Source: Citromicrobium bathyomarinum (lineage in GTDB: Bacteria > Pseudomonadota > Alphaproteobacteria > Sphingomonadales > Sphingomonadaceae). From it: a DNA stretch of 64,000 nt. The position numbers were made by a program, and so were the translations under genes. The notes below the pieces were generated by a model, which saw only the letters and a list, made by a program, of their open reading frames with translations, was not told the DNA's origin and did not search any database. Shown here in pieces: positions 17,957-18,118 of this stretch (position 1 is the first letter of the stretch; the number at the start of each line of letters is the position of its first letter). The DNA lies in the NCBI GenBank assembly GCA_001306305.2, contig CP155577.1, positions 1,657,501-1,721,500 of the forward strand. The letters are read 5' to 3'.

Positions 17957-17978
17957 TTTTCCAAAGGGTTGGTGTGAA

Positions 17979-18062
17979 TTTACCCGACCCTAACCATAAG
18001 CATTTACCAAGAATGACTTGACGGGGACTCGCCGAGGACTCATCGAGTCCCCCTGTGGATAA
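17979..18062 (+). promoter_or_regulatory. Cell-cycle regulatory region of ccrM (CtrA-like box, three GANTC, DnaA box)
   Basis: The 160-base leader of ccrM holds three GANTC methylation sites within 24 bases (GACTC at 18026-18030, GACTC at 18037-18041, GAGTC at 18045-18049). A perfect DnaA box follows at 18054-18062 (TGTGGATAA, the complement of TTATCCACA). A CtrA-like box lies at 17979-17994 (TTTA-N7-CTAAC against TTAA-N7-TTAAC, two mismatches). GANTC is the site methylated by CcrM itself. In Caulobacter ccrM transcription depends on CtrA and promoter methylation, so this cluster is likely regulatory; the DnaA box is an addition I would not have expected. Confidence 0.65.
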
Positions 18063-18118
18063 CTCGACCGGGCCATTCAGGGTGCCCGGCCGACAGGTTT
18101 TTGGGGGATGCACGCATC

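Follow-up and report, generated by a model that had tools for sequence, protein, structure and literature searches.

The upstream region of ccrM, the gene of the GANTC adenine methyltransferase, raises the question of what sets the timing of this methylase in a sphingomonad. In the present study, we analyzed a window of 64,000 nucleotides from Citromicrobium bathyomarinum (contig CP155577.1, positions 1,657,501 to 1,721,500), in which a sequence-only reading had pointed out three GANTC sites, a DnaA box and a CtrA-like box crowded before this gene. The literature searched did not settle how CcrM is timed outside the Caulobacter and Rhizobium groups. In Caulobacter, CtrA activates ccrM (PMC2877005, PMC3667746), and ccrM itself is most probably under the control of GANTC methylation (PMC3973325). 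GANTC methylation has been reported for Sphingomonas sp. AAP5 (PMC8067484), and the loss of CtrA in Sphingomonas melonis is stated to harm neither growth nor viability (PMC8116508).

The identity of the gene was examined with domain models. The protein encoded at 18119-19270 matched the Pfam domains N6_N4_Mtase and RAMA, and the best NCBIfam model for the product was CcrM, with 615 bits, under the model cut-off of 830. The domains and the best match bore out the assignment of the gene as ccrM. The gene had also been described as adjacent to rnhB, which was not the case, as genes for a short-chain dehydrogenase and a Na/Ca exchanger intervene. A ParD/ParE type toxin-antitoxin pair was observed 3' of ccrM, at 19969-20533 of the window. 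The features of the region are as follows:

17979..17994, + strand: CtrA-like element TTTACCCGACCCTAAC (TTTA-N7-CTAAC), with two mismatches to TTAA-N7-TTAA
18018..18022, + strand: TTGAC core of the probable -35 element, on which the ccrM upstream regions were aligned; the promoter role is suggested by the matching -10 and the 17-base spacer
18023..18052, strand not applicable: dyad GGGGACTCG...CGAGTCCCC, formed from GANTC 1 and GANTC 3, seen by eye in the nearest relatives only
18026..18030, + strand: GANTC 1 (GACTC), in the spacer between -35 and -10; a spacer GANTC is kept in most relatives
18037..18041, + strand: GANTC 2 (GACTC), whose last base is the first of the predicted -10; from the conservation of TTGAC-N14-GANTC
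18041..18046, + strand: predicted -10 hexamer CATCGA (weak), located by aligning the window with the 38 other-family loci that bear the core
18045..18049, + strand: GANTC 3 (GAGTC), confined within the clade to the nearest loci
18054..18062, + strand: perfect DnaA box TGTGGATAA (complement TTATCCACA), an exact 9-mer match at the predicted transcription start
18064..18093, + strand: leader hairpin followed by a T run
18119..19270, + strand: ccrM, GANTC adenine methyltransferase, 383 aa from an ATG start, with TTG at 18101 as a further open start

The region was compared with ccrM loci of the same order and class. The closest set comprised 80 named ccrM loci, mostly with Erythrobacter, Qipengyuania, Aurantiacibacter, Altererythrobacter and Citromicrobium titles, among others; we take these genera to be Erythrobacteraceae. 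Together with 29 further close loci they formed a clade set of 109, which does not count the copy of the own genome (L086); the 109 loci are not all separate species, since L070/L094 and L018/L089 resemble pairs. For comparison within the order, we used 34 loci outside the clade that share its family code (f1, taken by inference as Sphingomonadaceae) and 46 that belong to other families. The order sample was read from 110 of the 135 genomes with a match, own genome included. The class sample covered 40 of the 78 matching genomes, from the upper part of the score list, with the own genome, G005, G203 and G257 skipped. The own-genome background consisted of the window and 20 stretches of 20 kb, 464 kb in all, or 14% of the genome.

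The alignment revealed a conserved core before ccrM. TTGAC-N14-GANTC was present in 77/80 named, 24/29 further close, 23/34 other same-family-code and 38/46 other-family loci. In total, the GANTC at +14 was found in 162 of the 189 ccrM loci of the order and in 20/40 loci from further families of the class. A spacer GANTC accompanied GANTC 2 in 70/80 named and 21/29 further close loci. In the 38 core-bearing other-family loci, the hexamer that starts from the last base of the +14 GANTC followed the pattern C-A-n-n-n-T, with the A and the T present in all 38. A -10 element depends most on these two positions. The core thus resembles a sigma-70 type promoter, because the A and T of the -10 are invariant at a 17-base spacer. 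A simple sigma-70 scan of the ccrM upstream region of the window reported no promoter. As judged from the alignment, the core is an old alphaproteobacterial design, probably a promoter, which consists of TTGAC, usually a spacer GANTC, and a second GANTC overlapping the -10. One GANTC site is thus in the spacer and another on the predicted -10, a placement expected of a methylation-responsive promoter of the GcrA/CcrM kind.

The three GANTC sites within 24 bases were confirmed at 18026, 18037 and 18045, and their number was set against the genomic background. The 464-kb sample contained 669 GANTC sites (1.44 per kb), with six triplets within 40 bases and two spanning 24 bases or fewer, one at the ccrM site and one in L135. 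The triplet by itself was only mildly unusual, and it was rejected as a signature on account of the second tight triplet. The fuller arrangement TTGAC-N2-5-GANTC-N3-7-GANTC occurred once in the same sample, at ccrM. Across the window as a whole, GANTC was strongly under-represented (83 sites versus about 305 in shuffles).

The DnaA box reported upstream of ccrM was found intact, and its frequency was determined in the same background. The exact box occurred three times in the 3,298,986-base genome, where the backward-read control occurred nine times, and once in the 464-kb sample, at ccrM. As for the other two copies, the translated frames were read as ruvX-like beside one of them and as cytochrome oxidase subunit II-like around the other. 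In the family code, each of 79 genomes had between 0 and 28 exact boxes, and the box is not unique to ccrM. At ccrM, 103 of the 109 clade loci had an exact box over the -10/start region (78/80 named, there in the same orientation downstream of TTGAC, and 25/29 further close). This fixed-place box was present in 0/34 other same-family-code loci and in 0/46 loci of other families in the order. The sequence flanking the box in the 80 named loci, 540,062 bases in sum, contained no other exact box. Six clade loci had no exact box (L043, L070, L087, L094, L108 and L115), one of which, L043, carried a single-mismatch box, TGTGGATAG; L043 and L070 were the two among the named loci. L087 had neither the TTGAC core nor the box, and its upstream region looked unrelated, while L091 and L092, of the same genus code, had both. 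On the CcrM tree, built with FastTree from 189 rows of which 80 were partial (about 130 residues), the fixed-place box required four changes, with its bearers grouped. One gain with few losses therefore fits.

The conservation of the box was also viewed against its surroundings. The nine box columns of the alignment were exact by selection, so that 103/109 is the fair measure of conservation. Beside the box, the CC before it and the T two bases after it were kept in 1.00, 0.97 and 0.96 of the 103 loci (CCTGTGGATAANT). Further into the leader, starting with the third base past the box, the commonest base reached only 0.30-0.60 in the 103 aligned box-bearing loci. The start of the box coincided with the last base of the -10 in 71/103 loci, lay 1 to 8 bases downstream in 31/103, and fell in the spacer in one (L112); no box (0/103) was upstream of the -35. 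Such positions resemble those of an operator. In L112, the box sits between the -35 and the -10 and replaces the GANTC sites, giving a rearranged form of the clade promoter. The distance from TTGAC to the box varied from 23 to 31 bases in the clade, and this drift spoke against the box as the -10 element itself, a reading that was not kept.

The window carries a local variant of the clade layout. GANTC 3 was restricted within the clade to L005-L009, that is, 5/80 named and 0/29 further close loci (5/77 and 0/24 of those bearing the core). The same five loci had the longest distance from TTGAC to the box, 30-31 bases, which is 7 to 8 beyond the commonest layout. Owing to these additional bases, the DnaA box of the window lineage begins at about +1 and not on the -10. 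A GANTC within 12 bases after GANTC 2 was also present in 2/23 other same-family-code core-bearing loci and in 19/38 core-bearing other-family loci; on these counts, we rejected the idea that the third GANTC is strictly lineage-specific. The hairpin of the leader was dismissed as a terminator, as the terminator scan did not accept 18064..18093.

The CtrA-like element was evaluated in the same manner. Its location and its two mismatches agreed with the sequence-only reading; on the other side, such sites occurred at chance density, and a like pattern was found in a minority of relatives. Specifically, the window contained 28 two-mismatch CtrA sites versus 21.9 expected. A looser pattern, YTDR-N7-YTAAC, which was composed after the loci had been inspected, was observed 37-39 bases before CTTGAC in 18/80 named and 7/28 anchored further close loci. 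Anywhere in 80 bases, it was present in 21/80 named loci (0.6 percent in shuffles) and 9/28 further close loci. Outside the clade, it was found in 0/34 other same-family-code and 0/46 other-family ccrM loci. Since the pattern occurs in a minority of the clade and in none of these outside loci, a CtrA input is possible in part of the clade. The motif TTAACC was enriched upstream (37/80 named loci versus 2.5 percent in shuffles), yet it was also present in 19/34 other same-family-code loci. The CtrA box was rejected as the main element and kept as a minority feature only. The sequence-only reading had made its proposal depend on conservation in close relatives and on a density different from that of random intergenic DNA. 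By these measures the DnaA box and two of the GANTC sites stood, and GANTC 3 and the CtrA-like site came out weaker.

We further searched for exact DnaA boxes near ccrM in other lineages. Seven of the 34 other same-family-code loci had one, at a distance of 105 to 153 bases upstream of the projected start of the gene; these seven are not independent, because six share the genus code g2. Four of the 40 loci of other class families also had one (L247, L251, L257 and L258). In L251, the box fills the spacer right after TTGAC in the opposite orientation, and in L257 it shares bases with the GANTC 2 position, so that both are inside the core promoter; in L247 and L258, the box is upstream of the core promoter. 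By hand arithmetic, about 0.03 box loci were expected by chance per set (34 or 40 loci, 350 bases each), at a rate taken from 102 exact boxes in 42.6 Mb of 12 genomes, all of which had been picked for a box at ccrM. No exact box was found near ccrM in the 46 other-family loci of the order or in 36 of the 40 class loci. An exact box is therefore not required for ccrM control in general.

These observations describe a strongly conserved regulatory region, in which the comparison of loci lends good support to a predicted link with DnaA, and they led us to a model of ccrM control. It is probable, with reservations, that the gene in this Erythrobacteraceae-type clade has a methylation-sensitive promoter, presumably of the GcrA type, that is repressed by DnaA. 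Both GcrA and DnaA are encoded in the own genome, GcrA as a PF07750 match above the cut-off at 2683360-2684019 and DnaA as a protein with the GGRDHST motif. In the model, the methylation state of the GANTC sites, probably read by GcrA together with sigma-70 RNA polymerase, would set promoter activity. If methylation tunes the ccrM promoter in this way, CcrM would feed back on its own gene. The step taken by the clade would be the addition of a perfect, presumably strong DnaA box over the -10 end and the start site. DnaA on the start-site box would block RNA polymerase and keep ccrM off near initiation, when free DnaA should be plentiful. The gene would come on later, when DnaA is spent or inactivated and the fork has moved past the gene, and CcrM would methylate its own promoter. 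It is a fair inference from the arrangement of the sites that replication initiation may in this way be coupled to ccrM expression. A broader reading is possible, although we hold it with somewhat less than even confidence: ccrM would be a direct DnaA target, and DnaA, which represses ccrM, and CcrM, which methylates GANTC sites and perhaps those of the dnaA promoter among them, would form a short two-part loop that joins replication initiation with chromosome methylation without CtrA and that arose several times in Alphaproteobacteria through a box in the old core.

The main alternative to repression is that DnaA activates ccrM through the box, so that methylase synthesis follows initiation, as for several Caulobacter genes. 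DnaA of Caulobacter is best known as an activator. The DnaA motif of the Caulobacter podJ P2 promoter is upstream of the start (PMC4287350), and the boxes upstream of the -35 in the seven same-family-code loci and in L247 and L258 point the same way; at 105-153 bases before the gene, the seven would also be suited to activation. Two further points count against repression, namely that a lone DnaA box may lack the strength for repression, and that the box of the window is at about +1 and its -10, CATCGA, is poor. In the clade, however, 102 of the 103 boxes are at or after the -10 end, with a drift of up to 8 bases. Activators seldom act from such sites, and on this ground occlusion fits better than activation, which we consider unlikely. 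It is considerably less plausible that the box acts as a sink or reservoir for DnaA, with a copy number that follows replication, and has no direct effect on ccrM. As the genome has three exact boxes, of which this is one, strong binding of DnaA is conceivable, but a single box makes a small sink, its position is held relative to the promoter, and boxes are found at ccrM in other lineages.

The reader of the conserved stretch may also be a protein other than DnaA, or the stretch may be needed by the transcript. The conserved unit exceeds nine bases, since the flanking CC and T are kept, which favors such a reader; against it, the conserved stretch is letter for letter the consensus DnaA box, and an RNA element would not tolerate the opposite orientation observed in L251, of another family. 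We regard this explanation as improbable. A functionless chance cluster of short motifs would agree with the two tight GANTC triplets in 464 kb and with the chance density of CtrA-like sites, but it is hardly credible beside a box conserved in 103 of 109 loci next to a nearly unconserved leader.

A strong DnaA box overlapping or beside the promoter hinders RNA polymerase at E. coli dnaA and mioC. The gene and the organism differ here, and ccrM of the clade adds a layer of methylation. At the GcrA/CcrM promoters ctrA P1, mipZ and ftsZ, GANTC is near or between the -35 and -10, and activity depends on methylation (PMC3667746, PMC4287350, PMC3708114); methylation governs GcrA binding (PMC3667746), and in Caulobacter a GANTC between -35 and -10 accompanies a defined cell-cycle window (PMC4287350). 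Unlike these promoters, that of the clade carries two GANTC sites in fixed positions, precedes the gene of the methylase itself, and has a DnaA box in addition. The Caulobacter ccrM promoter shares with the clade the gene and the expected cell-cycle control, and differs in that the CtrA-like site of the clade is weak or missing in most loci, with GANTC in the core and the DnaA box at the start. For cluster C, Magnetospirillum and Rhodospirillum, Brilli et al. 2010 (PMC2877005) had placed predicted DnaA sites upstream of ccrM, chiefly where CtrA sites were missing. The authors suspected low specificity of the matrix, and saw no conservation at the taxonomic level. Their prediction is like ours in placing DnaA sites upstream of ccrM; Erythrobacteraceae and the geometry of the ccrM promoter are not named in sections 6, 8 and 10 of that paper. 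We found no description of a DnaA box at ccrM in Erythrobacteraceae in the open-access literature. Control of ccrM by DnaA is accordingly not an entirely new idea, as the link had been predicted for Magnetospirillum and Rhodospirillum. The meeting of the initiator and methylation marks on about 40 bases would offer a direct handle on the tie between methylation and replication, and TTGAC-N14-GANTC, with a GANTC on the -10, provides a ccrM promoter model that can be checked across the class.

Further observations concerned the DNA upstream and the place of the gene on the chromosome. A second GANTC-rich block was noticed about 78 bases before TTGAC in L018, L028, L010 and many family-code loci, and was not seen in the window. 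Its motif GACTCnAnAT was present in 68/80 named, 24/26 anchored further close and 23/34 other same-family-code loci, and in 0/42 anchored other-family loci. By eye, the block often reads GAGTC...GACTCAAYATCTTGTG, with GTTC further along, and it is kept despite differing neighbor genes (L010, L028). As a second ccrM promoter, an NrdR site or a LexA site, it was unconvincing by eye. On the own contig, GC skew, taken from sampled stretches and noisy, was positive near 0.5-0.8 Mb and negative between 1.8 and 2.0 Mb; the best parB is at 528.7 kb and dnaA at 792 kb. The skew signs and these gene positions place ccrM in the terminus-side half. With parB as the origin proxy, by hand arithmetic and with some genome lengths rounded to 0.1 Mb, the distance of ccrM, as a fraction of the half-circle from the origin to its opposite point, was 0.54 to 0.70 in six genomes with the box (the own one among them), and 0.79 and 0.93 in the boxless clade genomes G025 and G110. 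The fractions were 0.11, 0.31, 0.34 and 0.56 in four other genomes of the family, and 0.55 to 0.87 in seven other-family genomes. A fixed distance of ccrM from the origin was rejected and not used as evidence; no clear pattern of this distance was reported for Sphingomonadales (PMC8116508). Away from ccrM, an exact DnaA box was located at L003:1501-1509, shortly before an open frame beside a ruvX-like frame, and the other genome of the genus (G151) likewise carried two exact boxes 8.6 kb apart with the same strands.
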